From Tetraselmis striata (Eukaryota > Chlorophyta > Chlorodendrophyceae > Chlorodendrales > Chlorodendraceae), in the NCBI GenBank assembly GCA_006384855.1, contig VCJN01003160.1:62001-126000 (forward strand): a stretch of 64,000 nt of DNA, written 5' to 3'. Position 1 is the stretch's first letter, and the number at the start of each line of letters is the position of its first letter. The translations under genes were made by a program, and so were the position numbers. Positions 226-49,965 of this stretch are shown here, piece by piece. The notes under the pieces are model-generated. The model had not been told where the DNA came from, ran no database searches, and saw only the letters and a program-made list of their open reading frames with translations.

Positions 226-3200
226 ATGGGGTATGTAAGCGCTGGGGACAGGCGTGCTTGGAGACGAATCGCCGAAGCTTTTGACACAGTGCGGAACCCC
301 AGCAAGGGTTTCCTGGCTCAATGGCGTGCGTTTACGCTGGGGTCAGCGGCGGGACCGGCCAAAGACGACCTTGCGGAGCTCCGTAACTTTGCCGACGCGG
401 TGAAGAAAGCTGTGATGGAGGTCAGCGGTGCCCGAGGAAAGGAGTTTAAGAAGCGGGAGGATAAACTGAAGGGGGCTGAGAAAGAGTACGGGAAAAGTCG
501 CAAAAAGGTGCAGATGCCAAGCGCAAGTGGCAGCTTAGGCCCCTGCAGTGGACAAGAAGTGGCGCTAGCCACATACCCATCACAATGCAACCCCGTTGAA
601 TACTGTCTTTGGAGGGTACAGTCACAGCTTGTGCACACGTATATGGGATGGGTACACCCGCTGCATCCCTACATGCCATGCAAAGAACACCCCATAGCAG
701 TCCTGAATTTAAAATGTAGGCTCCAATGTAGGAATGCCCCCCCCCCCCCCCCCCCCCCCCAAAAAAAACACACACCGGTGCAATATTGCAATTATGTCTT
801 GGCGAAACCAGTTTATACCCTCCAGGCGCCTCCACAGCCAGGGCATAGTAGAATCAAAGAGTATTCGGGAACAACATGAACTGTATATTTGCCAATCATA
901 CAGCAACCATTTAGACAGATACGCTTCTGAGGACAGCGGGCTGGACCCCATACTTGACATCAAGTCATCACTTATCAGCCAGCTTCACTGACACATCAGG
1001 AAAATGTAGGTCATCATTGTGTTTGTTTTCTGCCATATAGAAGTCTGGCATTGATTGAGCGTTCAGGATCCCCTGTGGCGCGAACTGGAACAAAGGTTGC
1101 AGTGTTGTTGAAAATGTTGTTGAAAATGGATTTCGATGCGCATTGGCTGAGAAGCGGTCTGCTAGATTTTGGGTCCTGTGATGCACATGCTATGTCAGCG
1201 GTTGGTCATCTGCATTGGACTTCCACCATTGATACTTTTACGACTCGTGATCTGGCCATGTTTGGTGTCGACCTCCCAGGTGGAAGAAGCCAAGAACGCA
1301 ATCAACAAGATCACCAGACAGTTGAAAAAGGAAGAAGCACAAAAGGCGGCCAATGAGAAGAGCTCCAACACAGGCACGTGCAGTGTCGAGCAGCTAGTGC
1401 TCAAGGAAAAGGAGGCAGGAGATGAGCTGCACCAGGCGGAGATTCAGGAAGTTGAGGCGTCCACCCATGTGGTGGCGGCAAGGAAGGCTGAGACGGAAGC
1501 GCGCTGGGTGCTGGCACCTGAGCTGCGAGCGCTATGGTTGCTGGCCGACACGTTGCGGCAGCTGCGCAATGTATGTTCACACCTCATGGTTACCTCTGGA
1601 TCCCCACTTTTTGTGCCGTCTGTGTCTGCGCCCCTCGGCCGCCACCATGCCCGATTTGCTATCCAGACAGCACTGCGCCTATTCAGCGCACTACTTGACT
1701 GCCTGGACGTTGCGCCGGAGCTCACACTGTGGCATCCCAGCGGTGGCGCATCAGCCAAGCTCAATGCGGCGCTGCAACTCGACATCTGGGCATCCACCTG
1801 CGCAGGACTACTGGCTGAACAGGCATCAGACGACCTGCAGCTAGGCTCGCAGTTGCTAGACGACCCGCTGATCTATTGCGTGGGGGATGTTGACAGCTTG
1901 GCCGGCGCCGCGTCTCTGTTCTGCTCAAGTGCGAGCCCTGCCCCCCATTGTGCCGTCGGGGCTGGAACAAACTTCGGGCATGGCAGCAGCGAGATTGCGC
2001 CACCGTGGCTGCAGACTCTCTGCCATCACTTGCGGAACAAGGATGCAGCTGTCAAGGGGCTTGTGTACACATTGCCAGACCCAGGCTGGGGACTACTACT
2101 CGCGGAGATGGTGCTGCTGCACTGGCAAGACCCACCGCTCTGTGCCGGTTCTCCCTTAACGGGCAGTGACAGCTGTACAAACACAGAGGATGGCAACCCC
2201 GCAACAGTGATGCTTTCCTCAGGCGACCTGACCGCATGGCTATCAAATTATCTGCTTGGCTTCCGACGACAACGTGGCCCACATGACATCCTGCCTACCA
2301 TACGCTTACAGCTCACTGCTGCAGCGGCCGCACGCCAGGCTGGTACAGTCGCAGGCGTGGAGAAGCTGTCGGCGATACTGCTGGCTGTAGACGAGGCCAT
2401 GAGTACGCAGTCACCAATGGTACCAGTAGCGAATGACCCTGCAGTCGCCAGCCGCCTGGCCTGGCTGCAGCAGGTAGCAGCAGGTGCTGGGTCCTCTGGT
2501 CCATCTGGACCGAGCCCTGGGTTTGAACAACCATCATTGAGCATGATTGGCGGGCCTGATCTTGCTGGGCTGGCAGCCGTGCTGCGAGCTGCAGAAGAGG
2601 CGGAGAACTGCGCCCTTGCGGCAGCTGCTGCGGCGGAGAAGGCTGCCAAGGCGGCGGCGTCCGCTTGGACAGCGCTCAAATCTGCGACTAACGGTGCGCA
2701 AGACAAGCATGGCTCTATGACCGGGGACGCAGAGCAACCGGCAGCGGCGGGAGAGGAGCAGAAGCCCATCAACGAGGCAGGGATAGCGCAGATGGAGTGT
2801 GCATGGGTGCAGCGCCACCCAGCTGAGCCTCTTTCCATGGGGTCTGCGACAATGGATGCGCTAAGCACTACCTGCCTCGGCGGTCCAGAGGTGCGTCGCT
2901 GGGGTAGTATGACCTTGCGCATGCGCATTCAAGGCACAGCCATGTGCCTGTCATTTGTTCGGTATCATGGCCTGTGCTGATGGTGGTGTAGGCCTGCAAT
3001 GGAGACAAGCGGTGCGCTGCGTGTGTGTGATAGTGACGCCCGCTGATGCTGTTGAAAACACATCCACAGGTGGAGGTTATCCCCGTCCTGGAGACGGTGC
3101 CCCAGCTTGTGGCTGCGCTTGGCGGGCTTGCGGGCTGTGGAAGCATATGGGCTGCTCTAGTTTCCAGTGACAAGAAATCTCAGCCAGGCATGTCAATTTC

Positions 3201-6200
3201 TGCCATGAGCAGCGTGACTGTGCAAGGTGAGCTGGTGCTGGTCGAGGCAGCGGCGGGTGGCTGGAACCTGAGCGCCACCCAGCTTGGAAGCATGATGTCT
3301 TCGATTGCGGTGCGAGTGGAGCGCTGGCTGGCCAGTATCAGCGAAGACATCCTCGTGCGGGTTGTCGGCCTGCGCTTGGGGAGCCTCGTGATAAGCCTTG
3401 AAGGCAGCTTTGAGGCGCTGTTATGTCTGCAGCTTGGATTGCGCGGCCGATTTGGTAGACGCCTCACCCTGCCGGACCCTGTGGGCTCGTTGAAGGTTAC
3501 ACCTGGCGGGCTCCGGCTGCAGACTCCGAGAGCAAGGTGCTACAGGCCTGGCCCCACTATTTGGCGCGCAGAGGGCGCAGGGGCAAGCATGGAAGTGCTA
3601 GCTGCAAAGCTGTTTGCTGCAGTTGGGCATGAGCTTGCGCCCGTGGGCGGCAATACACCCCCGCCACCCGGCCCAACTGAACTCGAGCTCCATCGAGCCG
3701 TATCTGTGGCCAATCTGAAATCGGTACCCTCCCCTCCCCCCGCCCCCCCCGCATCACGTTTTTTTCGGCGCTCACCCTATGTTGTATCCCGAGAACATGT
3801 ATTTGCCAGCGCTCCAAATTTTTCTTCAGTAAATGCTCTGTGGCGCTTGCTAACACGCACAATAGGGGAGGGGGGCATTCTTGCTGCCCCCTTTGCCTTC
3901 CACCAGCCAGGCCAGCTTGTTGCTGGTAAGGCACTTCCACTCTACCGACTTACCTCCTTCCCCCTCTGCCTCCACCTCCATCATCCCTCTGTCATGCAAG
4001 GTGAACCAGTTGTTGTCAAACGACCCGCGGGTACTGTGCTACCGGGATGAAGATGGCCGGACGCCACTTCACATTGCAGTTCTCATTGATCAGTGCTGCC
4101 TGGAAATTATCCACTCCCTATTGGCATATGGCGGCTCTGTGTTAGCAGAGGATCTGTGGGGGAACTCCCCTCTGCACCTGCTGCTGATGGGGGAGCGCGA
4201 GACTGGCGTGCGGCCGAAGGCCGCGTCAGCGCTCGTGGAAGCAGGTGCTCGGCTAACAGCTTTCAATGCCCTTGGGTGGACTCCACTGCATCTAGCAGCT
4301 ATGCTGCCCTCGGCGTCCGACTTCCTGAAGCACATGCTCCAGGCATCGACTGGGTGCTGGCTTGACGTGCAGGCCGGCGGAGGAGACACACCGCTGCACA
4401 TTGCTGCCGCCTGCACTGGCAACATGGAAGCAGTGCGGTACCTGCTCATGGCAGGAGCCTCGCCCAGTGTCAAAAATACTATTGGGGCAGCCCCGGCAGA
4501 CGTTGCGGCTGATGCCCCCACCGCTCATATGTTGCGACAAGCCATCCTTGACCAGCATGACATGATGGAGGCATCAGACAGTGCGTGTGTATCGCATATC
4601 AGCCTCAAAGGCGCTCCTGACACCGAAGCCATGACAGAACGCAAAGAGGAGAAGCAGAAGGGCGCAACCAAGGCAGCAAGCGTGCAGGTAAGTTGTGCTC
4701 TGGCCCCATGCACCATCTGCTATGGACGCGGCAGGGGCTCTGTGTGCTCAGAGCCGCAATTGTTCATTACTCGTGATTTTGTAGACCATTGCGCTGTGCC
4801 ATCGCCTTGAGAGTTGCCTTCGGCCCTTTGATTTCGCTTAGTAGTCGTTATTGCTGTACACGCTCGCGAGATGCGGACCGCAAGTCCGTTCTGCACGCCT
4901 AGAATTCGTGTTCTACTGTCAAAGCCACGGTCGTTATTAGCTATGGTGGGATTTTGTAGCCGGCATGTCACCATCTTGCACGCAGTGGACCCTGACGGTA
5001 CCACAACCTCAGGCTAGAATCGATGCCCCAAAACACAATGGGCTCTAGGTATGCGCCTGCGGCATGGCACGGCAACAGTCGCAATGCGCATAGCACAGAT
5101 CTCCCGCCGCTTGTCACACCGTGGCTGACAGCGCTGTAAATTGCTTTCTGTGATAATACACAGGGTGAATACACAGCGCGGGGGGGGGGGGGGGGACGGG
5201 GACGTAGAGGGCCAATATGCTGAGAGGCCCGCGTAGCAGCATGCAGAGTTCAGGAGGTGGGTGAAGTATCCGCACTGATACCCCTCTCCCCCTCTCCCCA
5301 CCCCAATTGCTCTGCCATCATACCGTAGGGCGCCGTGCACCAACCCATGGGGCACTCCATCATCTGGCAAGCGCCTAATGGCATCCGTTTCTGCGGTGTT
5401 GTGACTGGCGTGCGTGACGGGGGCGCGCTGTTGGAGGTGCAGCAGGTGGCAGAGCTTGGCTGCGCCACACTGCCAGGCACAGTGGAGGTGGTAGCTGCTG
5501 TGGTGGAGGGCTACTCTGCGCCACCTGGCCAGCTGTCAGCACAGTACGTGGCGGAGCTATTGCTTTGGCTGCTCCAACATCGGAAGTTGGCTGAGTTTGA
5601 GCCGCGTTACGTGGTTGCCTCCTGCGCAGACAAGCTGGTCGAGGTATTGCGTGCTAGTGCCCGCGCCAGTGCGCTGCCGGAGGCTGTGTCCATGCAATTG
5701 GCGCCATCAGCGCTGCTGGTAGCCATGCAGGAGTCGTTGCTGCTGCAGCCAGGCCTGCACGACGAACTGCTACCCTTTGTCAATGATGCTCGCCGGCAAG
5801 CGCTTGCAGCGGAAGCACTGTGCCTGACACTCGATTGCAAGGCCGTTGGTGCCTGGTTACGCGCCATCGCCAGAGTGCTGTTGCCTGAGAACTTGCTGTG
5901 CCAGCTCACCGAGGAGCAAGAATTGGAACTGGCGACGCTTGAGGTATTTAATCATCATCTGCTGCGTCACCGCTCCTGCCATTGATTAGAAATATCCATG
6001 AGTGGAGATCTTGGTTATGCTCATGCATGCAGACTCACTTGATCCATGAGAATGCAATGTCCCCCCCCGCCCCTCCCCCCCCCCCCCCCCCCTCCTCACA
6101 CACACACCAAGACCCACGTACACTGACTATTCCAATGCTGTGCGGTATGCTGGATGACCACAGCTACGTGAGACAGAGGAAAAAGAGCATGAGCCGCCAC

Positions 6201-6826
6201 CAGAAGAGGATCTGGGCCGTGATGGTGGGACATCAGGAGAAAACATCAGCGTCACCAATGCCACTAATGGTACAGAGGGGTTCAAGGACAGTGGGAAAAC
6301 ACAATATCCAGCGTCCTGGAAGTTGGATTTGACTGAACACCCTGAGATCCACGCGGAGTATTTCTGTCCAATCTCCCATCAGATCATGGTTGACCCAGTT
6401 CTCATTGAGGTTAGCTCGGCCCCTCCCTTGATGCTTGTCCACAGCACGCACATTTTAAAGAAGCTGGTGCGCACAGTAGTCCCAACCCCCCTCGCCCCCC
6501 CCCCCCCCCCCCCTCCTTGGTGTGTCGAATCCTGGCAGACGGGTCATATGTTTGACCGCAAATACATCGAGAAGTGGTTTTCACAGGGGAAGCAGAGCTG
6601 CCCCATTACGAGGAAACCGCTGACCAATGTGTCAATGACGCCAGCAATCCAATCTCGCAGCATAATACATGGCTTGATGAACAAGCTGTTCCCGGTGCGG
6701 TGCATGGACCCCTCTCCCCGCGCACCCCTCCCCCTACAATAAATCAAAACCCCTTTGTGCTCTACAACTATCCAATCTGCAAAGTACAGGCAATGAAACC
6801 CCGTCCCCCCGTCCCCGTCCACCCCC

Positions 6827-6857
<31 letters not shown>

Positions 6858-9800
6858 ACTCTCCTGCAATGGCACTCCTTGTCCACAGGGTGGGCTCAAT
6901 GGACCTAACTGTTGGAGTGTGAGGCTGGAATTTGATCAGTATGAGTGGGCTTGGCACTGCCTGGCAATGGCGCTTGACCACTGCTCTCTCCTTCTCACCC
7001 CGGTTACCCAACGGCTGGCGCAGAAGAATTACGCCGACGCGCACAACGGCTGGCGGGCTGGCATGAAGGCCACATTAGGCCTCAACGCCGCTATCGCCTT
7101 GCCACAGGACGACCACACCCCCTGGGACTTCAACACATTGGGTCAGATATGGAAGCGGCCTCTGTGGCTGGCGGAGCTGGTGCTTCCAGAGCTGGGCCTG
7201 CAACAGCTCGACGATGCCAGCCAACAGCTGCGCCACGACTTCGACGAGCTCCTCTTCCTGCGCAGCGTGCAGGCGCACCCGTACGAGGCGGGCCATGGCG
7301 ATCAGCTACCTGTTGTGGGGAAACTCATCGAGGGCGTGGGCACTGCGCACCGGCTGGTGGGCAGCCTGGCGCCGATGCTGGAGCCTGATGCAGACATTGC
7401 TGAGGTGTTGTCAGGGCTGCTCGACGAGTGCCGCAGCCTCAACAATGGCGACTCAGGCGACGACGCAATCTTTCTTCGAGACGCGGGCAGCATGCCCAAG
7501 CTGTTGCTGCAGCTGAGCGTGCTGGCTGTGGAGAGCGGGTTGATCCCGGTTGTCAGAGCGCTGCAGCGGGAGGCAAAGCTCCCCGGGCCAGAAGACTTCC
7601 CCAGGAAATCGAGCAGCCGGGGCAACTTTGACAACGCACTTGGACTGGCAACCTACATCGACAACTGCGTGCCCAAGGCGGCGAGCGGGTTCAAGGGCTT
7701 TCCGCTGCTTCGCGACATTATCAGTGCCAATACCCACAAAAGGACGGGCTGGCCTGGCGCACACTCCGGCAAGTCAGCCTTGGATGCCATTAAGGAATGT
7801 TGTGCACTCTGTCACCACAGCAGCAGGAGCAGTGAGCCTGTCACACTTGAAAAAGCGTTGTTGGCTCAGCAGGCCTGTGACCAGCTGCTGGCGGCATTTC
7901 TGCCTACTGATGATGCCATCCGGGCAGTGAGCCAGCGGCGCACCGCCTGGCTGCTTGGTGGCCTGCAGACAGAGCTGCCCTCTGACATCAGCGTTGCAAT
8001 CCGCAAAGCTGCAGACTCCCTGCTCCCGCATTTGGCCAGCAGCGCAGAGCGGCCACTGCTGACTCGCAAGCGGATCATCGATGAGAGCTGCATCGAGGCC
8101 AGTGGGAGGCAGGCTGTCCTGGAGCAGCTGGTGGAGCGCCTGAGGGCGGAGGAGGCGCCCCCAGAGGCGCGCTCTACCGTGCTGTGGGGCACCTCCGGCA
8201 CCGGCAAGACCTCGCTGGCCAACCTGGCTGTCCACAAGGCGGCGCCGGGTGCTTTCACAGCGGTCCTGTCGCTGCAGGGCAGCTCTGAGGCGGCGCTGCG
8301 CTTGGGGCTGGAGGCGTTTGCGCGGTCCGAGCCACGAGTGAGGGTGCAGCGCGACGACTCTGCGGACGAGGCGTTGACCAAGCTGGGCGTGTACCTGCGC
8401 TCCCACGACATGTGGTGCGCGCTGGTGGACGACGTGGCGGTGGAGGCGGCGGACATCTGGCGCTACATCCCAGAGGGCCGCGGGCAGCTGCTGATGACGG
8501 CCACCCGGCACCTGGGCCTGCCAGAGGAGTGCGCCATCCGGCTGCCTGATCTGAGCGTGGAGAGCTCGGTGCGTCTGCTGGTGAGGCTGGTGAGGGGGAA
8601 AGAGGCAGAGGTGGAGGCATACCTGCAGCGGAGGGATGAGGTGGAGGCGCTGCTGGCAGGCCCGCTGGTGGGTGGGCTGCCCATCATGGTGGCGGAGGTG
8701 GCGGCCATCATTGGCAACCGCTCGAGGCCATTTCTGGAGGTGGCGGCTGAGCTGCGCAATGCTGCTGGCAGCTGCCTTGAGGGCATCAACAGCCGGAACT
8801 ACATGCTGGGCGGGCCGATGGGCAGCATGAAGCTTTGGATGCGCCGGGTGGCGGAGCGGAGGGGCGCCGGCATGGTGCGTGCGGCGGAGCGGCTGCTGGC
8901 GGTGTGTGCGCTGCTGGAGCCGGCGGGCATCCCGGTGTCGCTGCTGGCGGAGGTGGCAGTGAGGTGGGACGCCAAGGAGGGGCTGGGCTTGGCAGGGCAC
9001 ATTGCCCAGTCCCTGGCTGCCGAGAAGACTGCGGATACTGGGGAGCGAAGGCTGGCAATTGAGCGCATGGTGGAGGAGTGGAAGACCGAGGCTGGGCCTC
9101 AGGATGAGGAGCCACGGAGGACGCTAATGGAGAGCCTGTCTGAGGCGCTGAAGTCATTGGTGGCAAGCAGACTCGGCGGGGAGGAGGAACGGCAAGAGCA
9201 ACACCATGACCACGAGGCGTCCGCGGAGGCCGGCGTTGGGCAGGACGGCAGTGCCGGAAGAGAGGCAGATGACCTGGCGGAAGTGTTGGAGGCAAAGGTG
9301 GTGCTTGAAGAGAGAGATGTCGGTGCCGAGGACTCAGCAGCTCCAAGCGCCAAGGGTCCGGTGGGGGAGGGACTGACGGAGCAGCTGGCGGAGGCGCTGA
9401 CGGCAGTGGAGGCCTGTGGCAACCTGTTGGAGGTGCTGCCGGGCGGCGGAGCGCTAGGCATGCTCAGCGTGTTCCAGTCGTGTGCATTCAAGCTGTTTGC
9501 TGGGGAAGCCGCAGAAGCGGCAACGGCAGTGCGCAGAGCGCTGGCAAGTTGCTACTGTGGGGATCCCCATGTAGACGTGGAGCGGAAAAAGGAGTGGCTA
9601 CCCTGTGCTCAGCATCATGTGACGATGGCGAACATTGAAGGTGACAAGGCAGGAGGTGAGGAGGAGGAGCGCCTGGAGCTGGCAAAGCTGCTGAGTGGTG
9701 TGGGGAACTTCCTGCGTTTGAGGATGGGAGATCTGACGGGGGCGGAGGGCCTTCTGGAGAGGGCGTTGGACATCAGGGAGGAGCAGCTGGGGCCCCGCCA

Positions 9801-12333
9801 CCCTGACACTGCCTCCTCCCTCAGCAACCTGGCTGCCCTGCACAAGGACAAGGGGAACTACGCCGCCGCCCAGCCGCTGATGGAGAGGGCGCTGGACATC
9901 ACGGAGCAGCAGCTGGGGCCCCGCCACCCTGACACCGCCTCCTCCCTCAACAACCTGGCTCAGCTGCACCAGTCCAAGGGGGACTACGCCGCCGCCCAGC
10001 CGCTGATGGAGAGGGCCCTGGACATCATGGAGCAGCAGCTGGGGCCCTGCCACCCTTCCACCGCCACCTCCCTCAACAACATGGCTCAGCTGCACCAGGC
10101 CAAGGGGGACTACGCCGCCGCCCAGCCGCTGATGGAGAGGGCCCTGGACATCAGGGAGCAGCAGCTGGGGCCCCGCCACCCTGACACCGGCTCCTCCCTC
10201 AGCAACCTGGCTGGGCTGCACAAGGCCAATGGGGACTACGCCGCCGCCCAGCCGCTGATGGAGAGGGCGCTGGACATCATGGAGGAGCAGCTGGGGCCCC
10301 GCCACCCTTCCACCGCCTCCTCCCTCAACAACCTGGCTCAGCTGCACCAGGACAAGGGGGACTACGCCGCCGCCCAGCCACTGATGGAGAGGGCGCTGGA
10401 CATCACGGAGCAGGAGCTGGGGCCCCGCCACCCTGATACTGCGACCTCCCTCAACAACCTGGCTCAGCTGCACCAGGACAAGGGGGACTACGCCGCCGCC
10501 CAGCCGCTGATGGAGAGGGTGCTGGACATCAGGGAGGAGCAGCTGGGGCCCCGCCACCCTGACACCGCCTCCTCCCTCAACAACCTGGCTGCCCTGCACA
10601 AGGCCAAGGGGAACTACGCCGCCGCCCAGCAGCTGATGGAGAGGGCGCTGGACATCAGGGAGCAGCAGCTGGGGCCCCGCCACCCTGATACTGCGACCTC
10701 CCTCAACAACCTGGCTCAGCTGCACCAGGACAAGGGGGACTACGCCGCCGCCCAGCCGCTGATGGAGAGGGCGCTGGACATCACGGAGCAGCTGCTGGGG
10801 CCCCGCCACCCTTCCACCGCCTCCTCCCTCAACAACCTGGCTCAGCTGCACCAGGACAAGGGGGACTACGCCGCCGCCCAGCCGCTGATGGAGAGGGCGC
10901 TGGACATCACGGAGCAGCTGCTGGGGCCCCGCCACCCTTCCACCGCCTCCTCCCTCAACAACCTGGCTCAGCTGCACCAGGACAAGGGGGACTACGCCGC
11001 CGCCCAGCCTCTATTTGAGAGGGCGCTGGACATCTGGGAGCAGCAGCTGGGGCCCCGCCACCCTTCCACCGCCACCTCCCTCAACAACCTGGCTCAGCTG
11101 CACCAGTCCAAGGGGGACTATGCCGCCGCCCAGCAGCTGATGGAGAGGGCGCTGGACATCAGGGAGCAGCAGCTGGGGCCCCGCCACCCTGACACTGCCA
11201 CCTCCCTCAACAACCTGGCTGAGCTGCACCAGGCCAAGGGGGACTACGCCGCCGCCCAGTCGCTGATGGAGAGGGCGCTGACCATCCATGAGCTGCAGCT
11301 GGGCCCCCGCCACCGAGACACTGCCGCATCCCTAAGCAACCTGGCTGGGCTTCACGACGCCAGGGGGGACTACGCTGCCGCGCAGCCGCTGATGGCGAGG
11401 GCGCTGGACATCAGGGAGCAGCAGCTGGGGCCCCACCACCCTGACACCGCCGCCTCCCTCAGCAACCTGGCTGAGCTGCACAAGGCCAAAGGGGACTACG
11501 GCGCCGCCCAGCCTCTATTTGAGAGGGCGCTGGACATCACGGAGCAGCAGCTGGGGCCCCGCCACCCTGACACCGCCTCCTCCCTCAACAACCTGGCTCA
11601 GCTGCACCAGTCCAGGGGGGACTACGCCGCCGCCCAGTCGCTGATGGAGAGGGCCCTGGACATCATGGAGCAGCAGCTGGGGCCCCGCCACCCTTCCACC
11701 GCCTCCTCCCTCAGCAACCTGGCTGGGCTACACCAGGCCAAGGGGGACTACGCCGCCGCCCAGCCGCTGATGGAGAGGGCGCTGAACATCAGGGAGCAGC
11801 AGCTGGGGCCCCACCATCCTCACACTGCCACCTCCCTCAACAATCTGGCTCAGCTGCACAAGGCCAATGGGGACTACGCCGCCGCCCAGTCGCTGATGGA
11901 GAGGGCGCTGGACATCAGGGAGGAGCAGCTGGGGCCCCGCCACCCTTCCACCGCCTCCTCCCTCAGCAACCTGGCGACTCTTCTGGCAGAGAAGAAAGAC
12001 TACATTGCTGCTCATCCGCGTATGGAGAGAGCCCTCAGCATTCGCGCAGAGAGGCTAGGACCGCACCATCCGGACACCCTCTTAGCCGCAGAGAGCCTGC
12101 ACAACATCTTGTTTGATGCCCAGAACAGCATGAAGGACGCCTTTGGGTTGCGTGACATGTTGCGGCGCAGCGCGGAGCAGCTGATGCGCGTTGGGCAGCG
12201 AGACTCCGCCACGGAATGCATGCAGTGGCTGAAAGGGTGCGACACGGCCATTCGGGAGACTGGACAAAAACAGAAATGTCCGTGCGGTAGCGGAAAGAAG
12301 TACGCCAAGTGTCACATGCGAAAGCCATATTAA
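226..12333 (+). CDS. Giant BAR-like/ankyrin/U-box/NB-ARC/TPR/SEC-C protein (eight exons)
   Basis: Exons: 226-507, 1280-2890, 3070-3723, 4001-4687, 5329-5943, 6164-6409, 6539-6694, 6889-12333. They sum to 9,696 nt (3,231 aa); every junction is GT-AG and phase 0, with no internal stop. The start ATG has A at -3 and G at +4, and an in-frame stop lies at 148-150. Domains: BAR-like charged coiled coil (1-190); unknown middle (200-840); four to five ankyrin repeats (about 840-1030); U-box (about 1345-1417), with the CPIS core, DPV, GH and W and a late CPIT; NB-ARC-like ATPase (about 1820-2150) with P-loop WGTSGTGKT at 1851, an LVDD Walker B, a TATR segment and GGLPIMV matching the GLPL motif; about 19 TPRs (2368-3140); SEC-C motif CPCGSGKKYAKCH at 3214-3226. 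Known: U-boxes recruit E2 enzymes, STAND ATPases are ligand-gated switches, TPRs bind partners. Inferred: a sensor-switch that ubiquitinates targets, perhaps in defence. It could be two genes, but the seamless phases argue against that. Confidence 0.75.
9772..12060 (+). repeat. 126-bp tandem repeats encoding kinesin-light-chain-type TPRs
   Basis: About 19 head-to-tail units of 126 bp (42 aa each) lie inside the last exon of the giant gene. Each unit carries the pattern LGPRHP, SLNNLA, GDYAAAQPL, ERALDI. Some neighbours, such as those around 10,780-11,030, look identical over a full unit. This points to recent duplication or gene conversion. The last unit, near 12,000, is the most diverged, as expected for the edge of an array. 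The frame is open throughout. Confidence 0.95.
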
Positions 12334-13329
12334 ATAGCCTGGGCAGGATCTCCTGATTCTTTTAACATCAGAATTGCAAGGTGCAAGACAATATTTGACA
12401 GGGACTCAGCCATTGATCAGACAAGATCTGGATGTTGACATGTTGCCATCGCTACGTGTGAGTATTTCATATCAATCCCTCTACTCTAGAATGTTTTCAT
12501 GCATGTCCGACACTTGTAGCTAGCCCGTCTTGCGACAGCAATGAGCCTGGCGCCAACCTATAACTTGGTACAGATTTACGTCTACCTTATTCTACGGTGC
12601 GGCCCTCCATCCCTTTAGGGGGGAGCAAACTAAAGCCATCGATATGCATGGGGGTTGAAGCAGAGGAAACGAGTTGGTATGGCTACATGACTGCACAGCC
12701 GCGCAATCAGAACTCATGATCCGCCGCAATTAAGACGTAACCCGTATACGAAGGCGCCTCCATCCACTGCCTGTGCTGCCGGTGAAAGTTGCTGCATCGA
12801 CAACTCTGCTTTTAGCTGCAAAATGCGCTGCCCCGTGTGTCAAGAGCTCCGCATCTGCGAGCTGGATGAGTGCTTCGCAAAAGGCACGTGACACCATTTA
12901 CTGGCGTGAACCAGATCATCCGCGTCACTGCCCCAGCTGCACTGTCTCAATGTACTTGAATTGGTGATTGTAGCACTGCTGGGCAGGTAGGTATGATAAG
13001 AGCGCCGCCGTGAGTCAAGCAAAGCCGTCCTGCAGCCACATCTTTAGTCCAGGGACCACCGCGGCGGTCTATAAAGGCAGACTTGATGCTGGATCGTAAA
13101 GTGGCATATGATGACAGTTACAATGCTACATGCTCAGCTGTACAAGATCAGGCAAATATTTCGTCTTGCTACTATGGTATTCTTATATGTAGGGCAAAAA
13201 CCGATTCCAAACAATCTGCAGAGCGCTACGGGTTTGCTAACACTCTTGGTATTTTGGTACCATTGGTTTGCCGCAGCTTCGAGCTGCATGCTCATGCCCG
13301 GGCTCCAGTAACAAGGAGTGAGTTATTCA
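12334..13329. other. Spacer, nothing recognised
   Basis: This is the 3-prime flank of the giant gene. It holds only short open frames, with no domain-like translation and no TGTAA element in the first 250 bases. I see no gene or repeat here. Confidence 0.6.
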
Positions 13330-14105
13330 TTCCAGCACACCAGGCGTGTGTTGTCGTCCCTGGATGCACTCCTTAACGTCCCGGGGGCCAACCCTGCGCG
13401 CGGGCCCGCTGCAATCACTCCAGGTGGCCATAGCAAACCGCCACGGAACAGACCTGGTCATGCCAGGGGCACCCTCAGGCCCCGGCCCAATGCAGCATGC
13501 CCAGGTTTCCCTTGCCTTGCCAGCGCAGGTCCTCTCATCCCAGGGACAGCCCTGCTCCACCGATTAAAACAGGACTGATAAGTGATTGTCCGCTGCTGCC
13601 TCTGAGCAACTCCGCACATCTCAGGGGCTACCCTACACGCGGGCCTGCTCTCATTGCGCAACCAGCCTGGGGCAGGCGTCTGCCTCCCAGGGGCGACCCT
13701 GCCCGCTCGCACACCGCGGCACATTCAGATGGCCTCGCTGGGCTTGTCATCATAGGCGCACCCTTGCGCCTTTGCCCACCTCAGCGTCTCCAAGTTCCCT
13801 TCCCCAATCACGCCACTATACGTCTGCTTGTCCCAGGGGCAGTGTCTTGCTTGTGCCCACTGTAGTGCCCGCAGGTGCCCTGCCTCACCCAGGCCGCAGG
13901 AAGCATGCCTATTGCAGCAGCAACCCTGTCCCAAGCTGGGCCCACTGCAGCAGCCACTTCCAGGCGCCCTTCCTTTCCGGCCTCGGCGCACGTGTCTTCG
14001 TTCCTGGAGCACCCTTGCGCCCTGGCCTATTCCAGCACCTCCAGGTGCCCCCCCCCCTCTTCACCGCGGCGCGTAGGTGCATGTGCAGGTGTGGTATCCA
14101 TCCCA
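13330..14105 (-). pseudogene. Decayed ankyrin-repeat gene of the GCPWD family
   Basis: Minus-strand translations in several frames show broken copies of the repeat seen in the intact neighbour at 15209-16258. Examples are LRALQWAQARHCPWDKQTY and LETLRWAKAQGCAYDD near 13,740-13,880, and MEQGCPWDERTCAG near 13,520-13,560. The frame changes several times, and stops fall between repeats, so no long protein can be made. No F-box segment is visible, so the copy is probably truncated as well as shifted. It lies opposite in strand to the intact gene, which suggests an old inverted duplication. Plus-strand open frames over this stretch are shadows. Confidence 0.7.
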
Positions 14106-15208
14106 TGGGCAGCCCTTGGCTTGGCTTCCGCCCACATTCACCTTGAGTACTTTAAGTCCCTAGCAAGAATGTATCACATATATAAGCATGTCAGCCGTCG
14201 CCATGTAGATGACTGGACGTGATGACTATGGCAAAGTAGTACCGCTCCCGCCATAGCCACTGCAGGCCAGCGGATGAAGCTTGCAAAGGTTGCACTTTCT
14301 TGCCATACTTATTCTTCAACGCGCCGCTATCGCCAGTGACCGCCAGAGCCGGGTCGCATATCCCCATGTTCACTGCCTGGCCCTTTCTTCAGGCGGCAGT
14401 CCGGTCCACCTGCTTCCAAGGTCGCGGGTGCCTTCCTGCTGGCACATCCTGCTGCTTGCCCAGTGCAAGATTCAGTTCAAATGTACGTATTATATACACA
14501 TCTAGAAGTATGTATGCCGCGCACCAGCGGCATTTTCAGCTGCCCACACACATAGGTCTCCGTGGCCAACCTTACATCTCAAATATCGATGTGCCTGTAC
14601 CTGTAGCGTTCCGTGTGAGCATGACGCCTAAATAAATCGTTATATCATCATGTATCAGCGATGCCCCCATCCATAGTCGGTAGTATTATTTAAGAGCAGT
14701 CCTTAGCCACGATGCCGATGGAGACCAGCGCGATTATTCGCAGTAGGGTCGTCGCTGCCCAGTCCGCCCTCCCGAGAACTTGCGCGCCGCTTTCTGGCGC
14801 TGGATGTTGATAAATTACATCAGCAGGGCTTTCACAAAAGCGCACTACAACAGAACTTTGTATAACTGTATATTATAACAGAACTTTGTTATAATTAACT
14901 GGCGCTGGATGCATGAAGTTTTAGTCGCTATATTATCAATCGGTATACTCCGGGTAGTCGATAAGACGATAATCGCCACCGCCCGTCCTCGTCGTCAGCC
15001 GCACCAAGTGTCCCTATATCTTCGCATCAGGACGAAAGGGCAGAGCGCCAGGAACAAATACCCCGTATCGTTACCCGCGTGTTCCCGGTTCGTGCTCGTC
15101 TTGATCGACTCCGCCACCGCAACTGGCACGCCGCGTGCCAGCTGCCGCTGCCCGCTGCCGCGGTGTAGTGACGATCCCCGCAGCCCGCTGCCAGCCTGCC
15201 CTTAAGCC
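14106..15208. other. Spacer upstream of the F-box/ankyrin gene
   Basis: No gene seen. An AT-rich stretch at about 14,846-14,897 carries two copies of AACAGAACTTTG. The second sits in a short dyad (ATAACA, six bases, TGTTAT). It could belong to the promoter of the gene starting at 15209, but there is no direct evidence. Confidence 0.45.
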
Positions 15209-16258
15209 ATGCTCACCCGGGCCAAGTGGAAAAATGAGGCGGGCGGCGGACCGAACGTCAACCTGTCGCCGGACCTGTTGCCGGACGAGTGGGAGGTCGT
15301 TGCGGAGCATTTGGACGGTGCCGACGGGGACACCTGGCGCGGCATCCTGCGAGGCGTGTGCCGGGCGGCGCGCGACGGCGTGGGGCGCGCGGTTGCCGCC
15401 ACTGAAGCGGGCCGCGGCGCTCGGATTAACCTACGTGCACTGGCGTCGAGGGTGGAGCTGCTGCAGTGGGTGGAGGAACAGCGCTGCGCCGAGTTGGTGC
15501 ATTACGACCGGCTTGTGACGGTGGCGGTGGAGAGCGGGAGCCTGAGCGTGCTCAAGTGGGGTGCGCAGTCCCGAGGCTGGCAGCTAGACCTTTGGGACAT
15601 CTGTGAGAGCGCGACTCGGGCAGGGCAGCTAGCGCTACTGCTGTGGGCGAAGGAAGAGTGGATGCAAGAGCAGCGCTGCTGCTTGGAGAGAAACATATGC
15701 AGAGAGGCGGCTGCAGGAGGCCAGCTGGCGGTGCTGCAGGCGGCGGTGGAGCAGGGCTACCCTTTGGATGAGGAGGAGTTGACAGAGGCGGCGCGGGGAG
15801 GTCATGTGGGCGTGTTGGAGTGGCTGATGGAGCAGGGCTGCAGATTCGACGAAGACTTTCCACCCTGGAGAGAGGCAGCGGAGGGGGGGCAGCTGGCTGT
15901 GCTGCGGTGGGCCGCAGAGCAGGGCTTCACGTTTGATGCCTGCATCTGCGCTCGTGCGGCTAGCGGAGGGCAACTGGAGGTGCTGCAGTGGCTGAGGGAG
16001 CAAGGCACTGACCGGGATGCAGAAACCTGCCAAGGGGCCGCCATGGGAGGCCACTTGGAAATGCTGCAGTGGGCCAGGCAACGCGGCTGTCCCTGGGATG
16101 AAGAGACCTGTACCCACGCAGCTATGTCAGGCCACCTGCAGGTGCTCCAGTGGGCGAGGGGGCAGGGATGTCCCTGGGACCCAAGCGCATGTCTCTTGCA
16201 AGCGGTGTGCTCGGGCGGCGTGCAGGTGGAACGCTGGATATTGCAGAACTGGGGGTGA
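15209..16258 (+). CDS. F-box-like protein with ankyrin-type repeats (349 aa)
   Basis: This is a single uninterrupted frame with start context GCCATGC. Residues about 20-60 (LLPDEWEVVAEHL, then GVCRAARDGV) look like a degenerate F-box, which in other proteins binds SKP1 of SCF ubiquitin ligases. From residue 80 on there are about ten repeats of 25-28 aa with the style GGQLEVLQWLREQG and GCPWDEETC. This diverged ankyrin type is often expanded in algal genomes, and the repeats probably recruit substrates. There is no intron, unlike most neighbours, which fits duplication by an RNA copy or a simple expanded family. A decayed relative lies on the other strand at 13330-14105. A TGTAA element at 16356-16360, about 100 bases past the stop, is the usual chlorophyte poly(A) signal. 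The repeat identity is firm; the F-box call is less so. Confidence 0.8.
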   Translation: MLTRAKWKNEAGGGPNVNLSPDLLPDEWEVVAEHLDGADGDTWRGILRGVCRAARDGVGRAVAATEAGRGARINLRALASRVELLQWVEEQRCAELVHYDRLVTVAVESGSLSVLKWGAQSRGWQLDLWDICESATRAGQLALLLWAKEEWMQEQRCCLERNICREAAAGGQLAVLQAAVEQGYPLDEEELTEAARGGHVGVLEWLMEQGCRFDEDFPPWREAAEGGQLAVLRWAAEQGFTFDACICARAASGGQLEVLQWLREQGTDRDAETCQGAAMGGHLEMLQWARQRGCPWDEETCTHAAMSGHLQVLQWARGQGCPWDPSACLLQAVCSGGVQVERWILQNWG

Positions 16259-16355
16259 CCCCACAGCTAGCTCTTTATGTCGTGCGGCTGTTGTGATGTG
16301 GCCGAATGGGAACCTGTCAGCTGCATGACATCAGGTGCGCTTCTGTGGTGCTAGG

Positions 16356-16360
16356 TGTAA
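16356..16360 (+). promoter_or_regulatory. Candidate TGTAA polyadenylation signal
   Basis: TGTAA is the common poly(A) signal of chlorophyte algae. This copy lies 98 bases after the stop of the F-box/ankyrin gene. Its position is the only evidence for use. Confidence 0.4.
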
Positions 16361-17480
16361 TTGAAAAGGGAATCTTGCAATGGGAAAGCAGCAGGACGTG
16401 CCACCTGGAGACATAGACGCCTTTGGAGGCATGTTACTCATCATCCTGCTTGGAGAAGGGCCAGGCAGAGGGCCTGCTGCTGCCCTGCACCCGCCCTGCT
16501 CTGTCCGTCACTGGAATTGCATCAGAAATGAACATAAAGTGCGTACGGGTAACGAGACTGATGATCCGATGGCCCGAATACCTGAACGAAGCATACAGCC
16601 ACCCGTTGCTGTCATTCGCCGCTGAATGTGCTGAGTGGCTATAGTATATATGGCGGAGCCGCGGCGGTACTCCGATAGCTTTTCACGTTCCTAGTCGTGC
16701 AGCTACAAGCAACATGCTGACGGCTGTTGACACATTCACTACAGGTAAATGTAGTAAAAGCACTATCGTTGCTGCGCAACAATAGTTCTCGTATGTCGTG
16801 GCATGTTTGCGTGCTGCTTGTTGGCTTGCTTGCGGGGTGGTGGCGATGATGAAGTTCGGTTGGTAGTCAGGTTCACTACAATTTCGACGTCGCCATCCAC
16901 CCATTGAACCACTGCAGTGCGCAGTTATAGACAGCAGTTGGATGTATAATGACAACAGACTTGCTGATATGCGTCTGCTGTGCTGTAGATACCATCATTG
17001 GTGGCAACCTTTCCGTTCCACCACCATCGCCTCATTGTTTCTTTACTATATAGCGCCGTGTTATCTGTGATAAGTAATAGCCTGGGCTGGTGTATCGGAC
17101 GACTCTGCGATTTATACGTATCTCCTGCAGCTTCCTGCAGCGCATGTAAATGCATTTAGAATATGGAAATGATACTTAAGATTCTGCTGGTCCTAGTCAA
17201 ATAAGGAGAAGTACTGCGCTGCATTCGTCCTCTAATCTCAGTTAAAGAAATAACGGGAACAAACAAATGATGATGCATCGCGTGCATTATCACACAATGC
17301 GCATACCAGGGGGTGGCAGTAAACTTAGCGCCAACGACTTTGTCGGCGCATCGATGTTTACTCGTCACTCATAATAGGGACTAGTGATGCCAGTTGCAGA
17401 CGGGACAGCTGCGCTTCCGCGGTGGCGGTGGGGTGGATAAACTCCGCCAATGTCTAATATATACATATTTACAAACTCCT
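16361..17480. other. Spacer, nothing recognised
   Basis: No convincing coding segment, RNA gene or repeat family was found in this moderately AT-rich stretch. Confidence 0.55.
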
Positions 17481-17870
17481 AGAGAACAGAGCAGAGTACT
17501 GTTGGAGCCGTTCCGAGGCCTTACCCGCCGGACCTCGCTGGACCTCTCCGAAGACGCCGTCACCAACAGCCAACTGTTCTTGCTACAGTCCTTTCCCGAC
17601 CTCGAGGCGCTCAGGCTCGCATGCTGCAAGGATCTCACGGGGCGGTGCCTGGTGCAGCTGAGCTATCTGCGCAATCTCAGCAGCCTCAACGTTCGCATGC
17701 AGGACTGCCCCCCCCCCCCCCCCAGGGCCGCCTTGACGCAGGGCCCGCGCGCGACGAGTTCATGCAGTTCTGCAACCGCCACCGAGGCCTGTAGGTCGTC
17801 AACACGGCTCCAAACTGCGCGTTGCACGACCAGTACCAATTGCCCCTGGGTTTACGACATCCTCACGGAC
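17481..17870 (+). pseudogene. Leucine-rich-repeat gene fragment
   Basis: The plus-strand translation near 17,500-17,700 gives LRR-like segments such as LTRRTSLDLSEDAVTNSQLF, FPDLEALRLACCKDLTGRCL and LVQLSYLRNLSSLNV. A poly-C run at 17,709-17,723 follows, probably a remnant of an intron. After it, a different frame reads DEFMQFCNRHRGL and then meets a stop. No start region or further repeats were found upstream. I read this as a stranded fragment of an F-box/LRR type gene. It could instead be two exons of a gene whose other exons I missed. Confidence 0.45.
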
Positions 17871-18896
17871 GATGCCATCACGGGCGCTATCCTCAGCTAT
17901 CGCCATCTTCCGGCATGAGTGGCCAACTTGTGATGGCGTTGATGTCCAAGGCGTCAAGGGCCTCTTCAGCCATGTGATGTATCACCACCTGTTTGATACT
18001 CGTATGTACATCTCTCGGGCTACAGCCATTGCCGACAAGGGAGATTTGCTGCCTATTACGAAACAGTTATTTCTCCTCAATATATAAGAAGTATGCCCAC
18101 ATTTTGTATTTGCATAGCAAGCAACTCTCTTCGGACCACGGCACCTGTATGTATCAAAGTGTATCAAACCTGCATGCCGGCATGTAGATACCCTCTTGGC
18201 ATCTACGGGTGCCAACGCACCTGTGAATAAGAACCCGTGACATACGCCTGTATCATTAGCCATTGGGATTATGTGCTATCTACATGAATTTCCGCTACAT
18301 GGGTGGTGGTTCCGCTATAGCCTTGTCTTTTCCTTGACACCTGGCAGGTTGGGGCGTTGGGTAGGTTCTGATTCACAGCGTTCTTGTGACCGTGTGGGCG
18401 CCCGTAGAGGTGCGTCCTTTTTTATTGAAAGGGCTTTGCTCGCGGACATGTTTCTTGCTTGGCGCATATCATCCAACATGTGCTTCCTCTGTCCGCTAGC
18501 ATGCATGCCACGCCCTCATAAAGCTAGCCCCTCTTTAACGCAAACATGCGCATGGTAGCGACTTATATGGCAACATGTCATTCATTTTTACTTCGATGCG
18601 CTACCCCCTTCTCTCCCCAACACGCGCCCGGCCCCAGGGGAAAAACACAAAGCGTCGACATGCGCAGGGGTCAGTGCGGAAGGGAGCAGTACGCTGCTTC
18701 GGTCCACAAAGCTACATGTCGGCATGGCTGGATATCAAACAGTCAAGACACGCTTTACGAACATAGCAGCCGCATTGGACGACACCTTCATCGATCGCGC
18801 ACTGCCGACCTGGATTGCCGCCTGTGCAGCGGTGCCCCGAGCTTCAATGCACGCCGCTCAGCCTGCGCGCTGCCCGCTGTCGGTTGACAGGCTGGA
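17871..18896. other. Spacer and 3-prime flank of ALKBH8
   Basis: No gene is recognised. The right part should hold the 3-prime UTR of the minus-strand ALKBH8 gene, whose stop lies at 18897-18899. Confidence 0.5.
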
Positions 18897-21800
18897 TCAG
18901 TCTTTAGCAAGCAGGAGGCACCAGTTGCTGGCGTCAAAGAACTCGTCCACGACGGTGCAGCCCTGCACGCGCTGCCCCAGCCGCGTCATCTCGCCCTGCC
19001 GGAACAGGTGGTAGTAGCGCTGCGGGGAACACAGTCACAGTGAGGGCGGCGCTGTCAGTGCCAGTGCGCCACGAATCTGCAGCTCTTACATCCACCTGAC
19101 ACTTGACAGCTCGCACTGATGCACTGAAGCCCCCCCTCCCCCCCCCCTCCCCCCTTCACAGGGCGGCCCCAGGAGCTGGCTCTTGCTGAGCCCCCATGCC
19201 TATTGGCACAACTACGTACATACATGCACACGCACACACACACGCATACACACACACACACACACACAGGCGTTCACAAACATATGGCAACAACAACGGT
19301 TATAAGAACACGCTCTGTGGATCAAATCTCGATAAAAAAATGGATCAAAGTACTGCCTGGTAAACCATTAGCCAGCAGAGCGATTCTGGAAGCGCAAATG
19401 GCGGCTTCTGCAAGTGAGCCGAAGCCCATACATTGTGTATACTAATTTAACAATTATAAAATAGGTTATATTCCCAAAGGGACAAACTCGTGCCGATAAT
19501 GCTATCCTGTGTTCACACACTCTCTTCTATGGGTGCCGACGCACCTATACAAACCCGTATCGCAAGCCTCAAATTGGGGTCGCGTGTAAGCACGATCGCT
19601 ATGGTTCCGCTACAGTGTCGTCTACATTTGACCTCTGGCAGGCAGACCGGGTTCGTATTTGCAGTGTTCTTATTGCTACCGCATCAGCATCCGTGCATAC
19701 ACAAACGTACAGATGCATGGGTGCATTCCCAGACACACTGAACGGACCAGCATGCGCTATACAGTCATTATTGAGCATACCTTAAACATCACGCTGCCTT
19801 TCTCGTGGTTGATCTCCCCGCCGCTGGGCAGCCCACTGCTGCCCGCCAGCGCACCCGGAGCCGTCCCCTGCGGATCCAGACACGCAGCAGCAGCGTCAGC
19901 CTGGACATCCCCTGCTGACATGGCTGAGGCGCTGCCGGTCCTGCTGTCACCGTCATGGCTACAGTCTTACAGGCAACCACCTTTGACCCTTTGGCACTGC
20001 AAGAGGGTCCGTCTTCCACGGCCGGGAGTATACCTGCAACTGCTTATAATCCAGAATTCGCCAATTTGGTCATCGGCCGATTCCTCACAGGATAAATAAC
20101 GACCCCCCAAAGCGATTGGGTGACTAGCCCCGACTGCAAGCGATGTTAAACAGGGAATAGCAGGTGGCCAGTCAAGGGCTGAAAACATCTCGAATCAGGG
20201 TGCCCAGGTGAAGTGGGAGGCACGAGAAAGCCCAGTAATCCGCCCCTTCTGGACATAACTGGTCAGTGACCGGTTCTTCGCAGTTTAACCCCCCCTCCCC
20301 CCCCCCCCCCCCCCCCCTTCTGACCGAAGCCGGCGGCAACAGCACAGGGGTAACCAGCTTGCGGGGAAAGGCGCACGCGGGCTCCCACCTGCGCCTGCCT
20401 CAGCACCGCAGCGGCCTCCGTGCGGTGGAAGGGCAGATGCCACGGCACAAAGTAGTCGCCGCCGTCCTCGGCGCTGCCTGGCGAAGCATCCGCGGCTCCG
20501 GGCTGCACACCGATGGGCAGCCACTTGGCCAGCTTCTTGGCGTCCTGCTGCTCCTGCGCCCACACCGTCACCAGCGCGCGCCCGCCTGCGGCCACGCGCA
20601 CATCATGGTCAGCCAGCATGACATCACCTTCCCAACACACGCCGCGCCCCTGCGCGGATACATGGTCGCAAGAGATGCTGCAGCAAGTGCCCGGCGACCC
20701 GACGCTTGTGGAGTAAAAACCAAAACACCCTTGCTTCTAGAAGAAAAGGACGATGGCAGCATTGGGTTGAAGTGAAGTAGGGAGAGTGTGTCGACTAGAG
20801 ATAATTGACTTGCGGCCATCGATGCGATGATAGAGGCAATGACCAACAGCATGAGGTTGCATGGGGGGGGGGGGGGGGGGGTATCCCACCTGGCCGCAGC
20901 ACCCGCATGAGCTCCGCCAGCATGCGCACCCTGCGCTCCGCACTGCTCACGTGGTGCAGCACCGCCACGCACACGAGCGCGTCGCAGCTGCCGGCCCGGA
21001 TGGCCAGCCGCATGGCATCGGCGACGTAGACGTCCGCGGCGGGGGAGCAGCGCCCGGCGGCCAGGTCGGCGCCACGCACCGAGTGCTGCGCATCCGGCGG
21101 CTGCATCTTGCGCCACGCTTGCTCCACCAGCCCTGCCAAAGGTCCAGTTTGAGAGGCGTCAAGGGAAGTTAGGGTTTTAGGGTTAAAACCCAAACCCTAA
21201 AACCCTGAAGTAGTCGCTATCGGACCGAATAGGGCGCGGTCGTTGAGATATGCAGTAACAACAAAATATAATGCCTAGACTCTGAGCGCTTGGTAGTCCC
21301 TACTAACCGCATCAGTAGTAAGAGCTACTAGAACTGCCCTTACTCAGCAGCAGCAATAGCTTTAGCTGCTCCTGACCACCGTAGGAGCTACAAGTTAGAA
21401 CCATTTAACTGCTTTATTTTTTGTCACATGCAATTAGAGCTCGGCGCATACGGTTGGAGATATATGCCATGGGGCAGAATAGTGGTAGAGGTCCGTGTCC
21501 ATAATGGCCATGTGCACTGCCGACGAAGCACTACGCATGACATTTTGACATGGCTGATCCTTGGGATTAGAGCCATTCAGAACACGGCATGAAGAGCGGG
21601 GCGAAACCAGGCAACACCGAGGCAGATTTGGCTGTGGCTGACGAGACCGATTTGGAGTGATTTGGAGTGGTTTTCTTCAAGCGATTTGGAGTTGAGGGTG
21701 GGGTAGCGGCTACTGGGGGCTGAGGGGGGGTACCCGTGCTCCGATCGCTAGCAATGACTGCAATGTCTTGTCTCACAGTGAAGTACTTGCCGTTGCCGCA

Positions 21801-49073: not shown

Positions 49074-49790
49074 ATACTATACAGATTGCAAGGCAGTACG
49101 GCTAATGTCTGATATTTGCTCGCGGCACGCCGCAGATTGCTGCAGCGCTGCACCGCAGATGCTGCCTTTAGGCATGCTTTGATCGCCTAGATGGCTGCAA
49201 ACCATTTCGTATGCGGGGCTGCATGGCATAGAAGGGATGTGAACACGCACCTGCTTGACGATACTATGCAGATTGCAAGGCAGTACGGCTAATACCTGAT
49301 ATTTGCTGGCGGCACGCCGCAGATTGCTGCACCGCTGCACCGCAGATGCTGCCTTTAGGCATGCTTTAATTGTCTAGATGGCTGCAAACCATTTAGTATG
49401 CGGGGCTGCATGGCATAGAAGGGATGTGAACACGCACCGGCTTGACGATACTATACGGACTGCAAGACAGTACGGCTAATGCCTGATATTTGCTGGCGGC
49501 ACGCCGCATATTGCTACAGCGCTGCACCGCATATGCTGCCTTAAGGCATGCTTTAATTGCCTGGATGGCTGCAAACCATTTATAAGTATGCGGGGCTGCA
49601 TGGCATAGAAGGGATGTGAACACGCACCTGCTTGTCGATACCATACAGATTGCAGGGCAGTAGGAATAATACCTGATATTTGCTGGCGGCACGCCGCAGA
49701 TTGCTGCAACGCTGCACCGCAGATGCTGCCTTTAAGCATGCTTTGATCGCCTAGATGGCTGCAAACCACTTAGTATGCGGGGCTGCATGA
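49074..49790. repeat. Satellite: about four units of ~187 bp
   Basis: Units begin with ATACTATACAGATTGCAAGG or a near copy at 49074, 49261, 49448 and 49638. The last unit is cut short where the GC-rich minisatellite follows. Units are roughly 93-95 percent alike by eye. Confidence 0.9.
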
Positions 49791-49805
49791 ATCACCAACA
49801 TGCGC

Positions 49806-49965
49806 CGGCCGCGGCGCGTTGGCGCCCCGCTGCCCCGGCCGCGGCGCGTTGGCGCCCCGCTGCCCCGGCCGCGGCGCGTTGGCGCCGCGCTGCCCCGGCC
49901 GCGGCGCGTTGGCGCCCCGCTGCCCCGGCCGCGGCGCGTTGGCGCCCCGCTGCCCCGGCCGCGCT
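49806..49965. repeat. GC-rich 30-bp minisatellite (about five copies)
   Basis: The 30-bp unit contains CCGGCCGCGGCGCGTTGGCG and repeats about 5.3 times with almost no change. It is followed by a unique tail (49,966-50,075). Both recur, diverged, at 52695-52915. Confidence 0.9.

Follow-up and report, generated by a model that had tools for sequence, protein, structure and literature searches.

In the available part of PMC4986451, the tetratricopeptide repeats (TPRs) of fungal NOD-like receptors (NLRs) are described as mostly 42 amino acids long, a fraction of them showing high internal conservation and polymorphism in repeat number, with the variable sites on the concave surface. Proteins that combine a nucleotide-binding (NB) domain with TPRs are recorded in algae (PMC7145615) and an NB-ARC-TPR protein in Ulva (PMC8891106), and the U-box is among the domains found fused to NLRs in Brassica napus, B. 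rapa and Fragaria vesca (PMC4759884), as far as the excerpts of these three sources go. Here we describe a gene model at positions 226-12333 (+ strand) of a 64,000-nt stretch of contig VCJN01003160.1 from the marine green alga Tetraselmis striata (the window; all positions count from its start). The encoded protein would carry a U-box, an ATPase of the STAND type (signal transduction ATPases with numerous domains), a TPR array and a SEC-C motif in one chain. We consider it probable that this is one fused gene, in which a gene of a U-box family has been spliced into a member of a STAND ATPase-TPR-SEC-C family. In the open-licence PubMed Central literature we found no paper tied to the whole architecture, and the accessible portions of PMC11096116 and PMC4773052 contain nothing on it.

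Results

The gene model and the U-box joint

A preliminary description of this DNA stated that all exons between 226 and 12333 join in frame, and this was borne out. The gene consists of eight exons (226-507, 1280-2890, 3070-3723, 4001-4687, 5329-5943, 6164-6409, 6539-6694 and 6889-12333), with GT-AG at every intron, and encodes 3231 residues with a single stop at the end. All exon lengths are multiples of three and all seven introns are in phase 0. Using codon scores trained on two other open reading frames (ORFs) from the same genome, the frame of the model ranked first of six in each of the eight exons (exon 8 was scored over 6889-7128 only). Runs of at least 12 C or G occur five times in the introns (2.4 kb), intron 7 being one that has such a run, and never in the exons (9.7 kb); the other 51.9 kb of the window contain 21.

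The U-box is divided between exon 6, which begins with a linker and ends in its first part (...DPVLIE|), and exon 7, which holds the second part (TGHMFDRK...NKLFP|). The score against PF04564 was 40.9 bits on the unspliced DNA and rose to 54.1 bits with exons 6 and 7 joined (cut-off 21.4), a gain that supports this splice. In the Protein Data Bank (PDB), its best matches were PUB12 and other plant-type U-boxes (E 6e-14 to 5e-12), with CHIP ranked lower (E 5e-6 and weaker). The protein would thus be a putative E3 ubiquitin ligase.

We then searched the T. striata assembly itself (224 Mb, 2903 contigs), in searches that score the best candidates only. Two contigs, C514 and C1836, carry a module like that of exon 2, a domain like that of exon 5 and then the U-box half, in the order of the window. 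In C514 the U-box is split at E|TGH, at the same residue and in the same phase 0 as in the window. At the second U-box intron the donor follows KLFQ in C514 and KLFP in the window, again in phase 0 in both. Uniform phase 0, in the seven window introns and in these two, is unusual and consistent with easy exon shuffling. The C514 frame runs on past the donor that follows the U-box into an open phase-0 exon, which C1836 also has at 93% identity. Further downstream in C514, after about 1.4 kb with no visible exon, pieces joined by eye score 60.6 bits for LRR_6; these leucine-rich repeats (LRRs), read in C514, may belong to the same gene as the U-box. Neither contig was among the 16 STAND matches of the genome search made with the exon-8 part (19 candidates scored). 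Thus, the donor after the U-box appears to be an old feature of the U-box family that leads to another partner elsewhere, and its conservation with a different partner in C514 is the strongest argument that the joint between the U-box and exon 8 is real.

The STAND family and its lost start codon

The other parent family is separate. Searching the protein collection with the first 880 residues of exon 8 (7999 candidates scored) gave six relatives, all of them jgi Tetstr1 TSEL gene models, Tetstr1 presumably being T. striata. Outside the window, the genome holds six near-complete copies, of which three lie on C937, one on C1051 and two on C2580, where one is matched in two pieces. Diverged or broken pieces lie on C1113, C1482, C2223, C833 and C2695. 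All six gene-model proteins begin with M-P-P at a Met of their own, and their precomputed Pfam lists contain no U-box or ankyrin family. All six STAND loci share a 5' leader with GGAAAAG|GTACGT followed by their own ATG. An AG acceptor lies just before the start in five of the six copies (C937c has AA), and we infer that the leader of this family contains an intron. The distance from the acceptor to the common AWHC is 20 codons in the window and in all copies but C2580b, where it is 19. Intron 7 of the window (6695-6888), which includes a 26-base C run, would therefore be the fusion intron, running from the U-box-family donor to the acceptor position of the STAND leader intron. At its fourth codon, exon 8 of the window reads AAT instead of the ATG of the copies, and no Met occurs in the exon before residue 27; the window copy therefore lacks the start codon of its family. 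Nothing resembling exons 1-7 was seen in the 3.8-10 kb upstream of the six copies (one contig ends after 3.8 kb).

Two observations concern single members of this family. The gene model P0006 lacks the P-loop segment, and the genome match (C2580:17203-20033) breaks at 18531-18534 into two pieces, which may mean that the copy carries a frameshift or was mis-modelled. A distant relative at C1113:52356-54169 (46%) has six in-frame stops and a match to the C-terminal part nearby, and is either intron-bearing or dead.

We considered whether the window holds a pair of adjacent genes, the first encoding the U-box and ending in exon 7 or beyond it, the second encoding STAND-TPR-SEC-C and beginning close to 6890. 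The independent starts of the six STAND proteins, which have no U-box in their Pfam lists, fit such an arrangement, as does the stop at 6740-6742 that is reached when the exon 7 donor is read through. Two start codons would be available, an in-frame ATG at 6793 within intron 7 and the Met at residue 27 of exon 8. However, translation from 6793 would pass through the 26-base C run, and the conserved YE-AWHCLA would be lost if it began at residue 27. Moreover, only 194 bp lie between exons 7 and 8, the STAND leader and its ATG are gone in the window, and C514 has kept the donor that follows the U-box, with the frame continuing beyond it. We therefore regard two separate genes as rather improbable. 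The claim of the preliminary description that the parts form one chain finds support in the conserved donor and the lost start of exon 8; the N-terminal part of that chain had been misassigned (see below).

Exon 8 is a mosaic

The DNA of exon 8 was compared in 60-base steps with five of the six other copies; C2580b, a two-piece match, was left out of this comparison and of the divergence estimates. Over 6889-7128 the identity per step is 44-77%, and up to about 7120 the differences of the window are nearly always against all five copies alike. The four steps after a breakpoint at about 7121 are 90-100% identical and later steps 70-100%. Synonymous divergence (dS) falls from 0.73-0.86 over 6949-7128 (60 codons) to 0.12-0.17 after the breakpoint (636-638 codons), and nonsynonymous divergence (dN) falls from 0.26-0.27 to 0.056-0.069. 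The ratio dN/dS is below 1 on both sides, the 60 codons upstream giving it little power. Exon 8 thus appears to be a mosaic of about 77 diverged codons of the STAND family (6889-7120) followed by a recently shared body. A plausible history is that the fusion to the U-box came first, in a diverged STAND gene, and that the family block later replaced the sequence of this gene from about codon 78 onward through conversion or crossing over. The similarity does not end at the stop codon: two further stretches of the window (12.6-18.1 kb and 21.1-23.7 kb) resemble the blocks that hold other copies, with matches of about 78-96%. The STAND-TPR gene as a whole lies within a repeat block (window 7121-23696; also on C937, C2580 and C1051), with a tandem spacing of about 19-24 kb on C937 and C2580.

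An abrupt breakpoint at the edge of a multicopy block is also what would be expected if the assembler had made the joint at about 7121 between two STAND copies, and the fused gene might equally be dead. Neither fits well with the rest of the evidence. Exon 8 is open over 1814 codons, dN/dS stays below 1 on either side of the breakpoint, and after it the protein shares only 87-89% of its residues with each of the five copies, so that no known copy has been pasted in. In addition, the joint of the U-box to the diverged STAND part (6695-6888) lies upstream of the breakpoint and is independent of it. We consider an assembly or pseudogene artefact improbable.

The ATPase, the TPR array and the SEC-C motif

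The preliminary description listed BAR, ankyrin, U-box, NB-ARC, TPR and SEC-C domains. By hidden Markov model (HMM) search, ankyrin, U-box, TPR and SEC-C exceeded their Pfam cut-offs; BAR and NB-ARC did not. P-loop, acidic kinase-2, TxR and GLP are the ordered motif labels of an NB-ARC STAND ATPase. The motifs that had been quoted for this domain are present in the ATPase body (7121-9754), where WGTSGTGKT, LVDD, TATR and GGLP are invariant in all six aligned rows (the window and five copies). The score against PF00931 is 11.9 bits with a cut-off of 23.5 (13.0 bits for P0004). Because the NB-ARC model was not reached, we call the ATPase STAND-type by its motifs. A profile built from the window and the five copies matched only three unrelated PDB chains (E 0.85-1.9). 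Defence-system profiles gave none for the part of exon 8 before the TPRs; the paralog P0001 matched a TPR model and NsnC, both within its TPRs. PF00931 had no match in the T. striata genome at E 0.001. We give this little weight, since the search ignores introns and NB-ARC is reported in two T. striata proteins in the accessible part of PMC8891106.

The TPR array (9755-11975) scores 920 bits for TPR_12 (cut-off 30.1) and is a tandem repeat with a 126-bp unit, 17.6 copies and 89% matches. Anchors of the repeat unit number 19 in the window, spaced 18 times by 42 residues, and 16, 9, 9, 16, 16 and 17 in the six gene models. Across 93 units the entropy peaks at position 17 (2.70), followed by positions 39 (2.27), 20 (1.89), 10 (1.67), 21 (1.66) and 7 (1.36), while 29 of the 36 remaining positions are below 0.7. 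Highly conserved repeats that vary in number therefore lie C-terminal to the ATPase, as in NLR-like STAND receptors. The 25 best Pfam families of exon 8 include TPRs, with no C-terminal LRR of the NB-LRR kind among them. The C-terminal part (11976-12333) ends in the stop codon and includes a SEC-C motif (CPCGSGKKYAKC; PF02810, 27.7 bits, cut-off 20.4).

TPRs and a U-box in one chain recall CHIP, which was also among the PDB matches of the U-box, and the protein might be one chain that serves as a protein-quality-control or housekeeping ligase and not as an immune-type receptor. CHIP has three TPRs. The array of the window is unlike these: its 42-residue units are highly repeated and variable at few positions, and belong to a multicopy family whose members differ in unit number. 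A P-loop ATPase lies between the U-box and the TPRs, and the plant-type U-boxes match better than CHIP. We consider a housekeeping role unlikely.

The N-terminal module and exons 3 to 5

Exon 1 (226-507) contains the start Met (context GCCAACATGGGG) and the first part of an N-terminal helical module that continues in exon 2 (1280-2890). This region had been described as a BAR-like coil, an assignment that was abandoned. No BAR family was found by Pfam (two chance-level matches, E 0.16), the best PDB sequence match was PARP1 at E 0.18, and the sole match of the BAR class was MTSS1 at E 3.5. Instead, residues 8-375 of joined exons 1 and 2 align, at 27% identity and a pairwise E of 8e-20, with the tail of an ORF on C291 that encodes a kinase. 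The match, weak within the coil, crosses the exon 1-2 junction, and so both supports this splice and replaces the BAR reading. The C291 ORF (26502-28895; L040:3-2396) scores 82.4 bits as a protein kinase, and it is in its C-terminal tail that the homology to exons 1-2 lies. This suggested a kinase domain ahead of exon 1 in the window as well, an idea that was rejected: tblastn with the C291 ORF over the 10 kb upstream gave only an 18-residue match to the kinase part (E 0.58).

The genome search with exons 1-3 found relatives of the exon-2 module on C291 (34%), C1836 (37%) and C514 (37%). R96, N97, S100 and H101 (LRNVCSH in the window, an R-N-x2-S-H motif) are invariant in all four rows, C514 and C1836 being near-identical. 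HEPN domains carry an R-x4-6-H motif, and R-N-x3-H is present in all four module sequences. No Pfam family was matched at E 10 by three module sequences, and a module profile found no PDB chain at E 10. The module is possibly a HEPN-like nuclease or a dimer module, and we keep this as a possibility only.

Exon 3 (3070-3723) is without an identified family: it had no Pfam match, and the protein search that omitted the ankyrin exon gave no relative of it. Its donor (AAATCG|GTACCC) is in our judgement the weakest of the gene model. Exon 4 (4001-4687) encodes ankyrin repeats (PF00023, 71.9 bits, cut-off 21.1); at E 1e-12 its genome search returned only the window and C2631 (32%), among the best 150 of 200 candidates. 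No ankyrin part was seen in the 1.7 kb read before the exon-5 match of C514, positions 32201-33499 of that contig lying outside the stretch read. Exon 5 (5329-5943) encodes a domain of no known family that is conserved across the U-box gene family: the search with exons 5-7 found it on C1836 and C514, at 47% in each, and the C514 alignment stops at the exon border.

Other features of the window

An open frame of 350 residues (15206-16255, + strand) is by eye similar to the odd C-terminal extensions (LTRAEWKNEAGGG...) of P0002 and P0003, gene models that look like run-on annotation. Long frames at 36816-40711 (- strand) resemble by eye a retroelement polyprotein. At 49074-49963 a 187-bp tandem repeat (3.8 copies) precedes a GC-rich repeat with a 30-bp unit (5.4 copies).

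Discussion

A real intron-mediated fusion that made an NLR-like E3 ligase is the most likely origin of this gene. In the proposed product the U-box family would contribute, in order, the helical module, the exon-3 part, the ankyrins, the exon-5 domain and the U-box. The conserved phase-0 intron after the U-box would lead to the leader-intron position of the STAND family, and the whole gene would be transcribed and spliced as one. The TPR array may act as a variable sensor that binds a varying ligand. The P-loop ATPase would be a nucleotide-gated switch, probably oligomerising, whose change of state brings several chains together; as output, the U-box would ubiquitinate either a partner or the target that is sensed. 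In its mode of action the protein would resemble an NLR whose effector domain is an E3 ligase. The preliminary description had likewise proposed that sensing could gate an ATPase switch that drives ubiquitination from the same chain.

Several observations weigh against this interpretation. Neither the protein collection nor the T. striata genome yielded another locus or protein with the complete domain order in these searches, and the absence of a relative with the same joined architecture had been named beforehand as counting against a single chain. The protein searches took candidates of 0.55-1.75 times the query length that have short words in common with it; each search scored about 8000 of these, and relatives can be missed in this way. 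One search gave two proteins matching 11-14% of the query, both ankyrin proteins by their Pfam lists; when the ankyrin exon was omitted the result was only P0009, which is a frame of the window itself. Their matches include no annotated protein for the fusion locus, and the fused gene, like that on C514, is known from DNA sequence alone. The exon 3-4 joint has the open frame and the splice letters alone behind it. TGTAA, which we take to be the green-algal poly(A) signal, occurs at 5135 inside intron 4 and nowhere from the stop codon to 14500, which makes transcripts shorter than the whole gene possible. The score of the ATPase below the NB-ARC cut-off and the little power of dN/dS upstream of the breakpoint count on the same side. 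A viral origin was also considered and set aside, as two scans of viral contigs gave no relative. Since each half has relatives with other partners, we would read the fusion as lineage-specific.

More tentatively, with somewhat less than even confidence, the two U-box arrangements may reflect a modular receptor kit in Tetraselmis. A single conserved phase-0 intron would link a shared N-terminal effector cassette, made of the kinase-tail-like helical module with R-N-x3-H (possibly a HEPN-like nuclease or dimer module) and the U-box, to sensors that differ between genes: LRRs in the C514 type and hypervariable STAND-TPR in the window. An algal immune-type protein would then combine sensing, ATP switching and ubiquitination on a single chain. 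If a STAND switch is indeed joined to an E3 ligase in one chain, the receptor could act without adaptors. The two parent families, present in one genome, show the likely fusion step, and whether exons of immune-type receptors are shuffled through one intron becomes testable in a chlorophyte. The homology of exons 1-2 points to an unrecognised N-terminal module common to kinase and U-box proteins.

Compared with known systems, the gene shares its U-box fold, by sequence, with CHIP and the plant PUB E3 ligases, which are not known to carry a STAND ATPase and have other partners. The U-box genes on C514 and C1836 differ in their C-terminal part (LRR pieces in C514), with no STAND match on either contig in the genome search. 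Exon 8 scores 521 bits (cut-off 300) for NF040586, the FxSxx-COOH system TPR protein, a model made for prokaryote annotation; its best stretch is the TPR array (residues 1365-1775 of exon 8), and the part of exon 8 before the TPRs gave no match by itself. Plant NLRs with an integrated U-box have a U-box fusion as in the window, but the window gene is of a different lineage, has no LRR after the ATPase, and takes its E3 from an algal family with introns of its own. The NB-TPR STAND receptors of bacteria, brown algae and Klebsormidium, and the fungal NB-ARC/TPR proteins, are like it in having a P-loop ATPase followed by a conserved array of 42-residue TPRs of variable unit number. Unlike them, it falls short of the NB-ARC model and carries an N-terminal U-box, ankyrins and a new module, as well as a C-terminal SEC-C motif. 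Finally, the variability of its TPRs at few unit positions, together with the range of 9-19 anchors, resembles the TPRs of fungal NLRs as the available part of PMC4986451 presents them.

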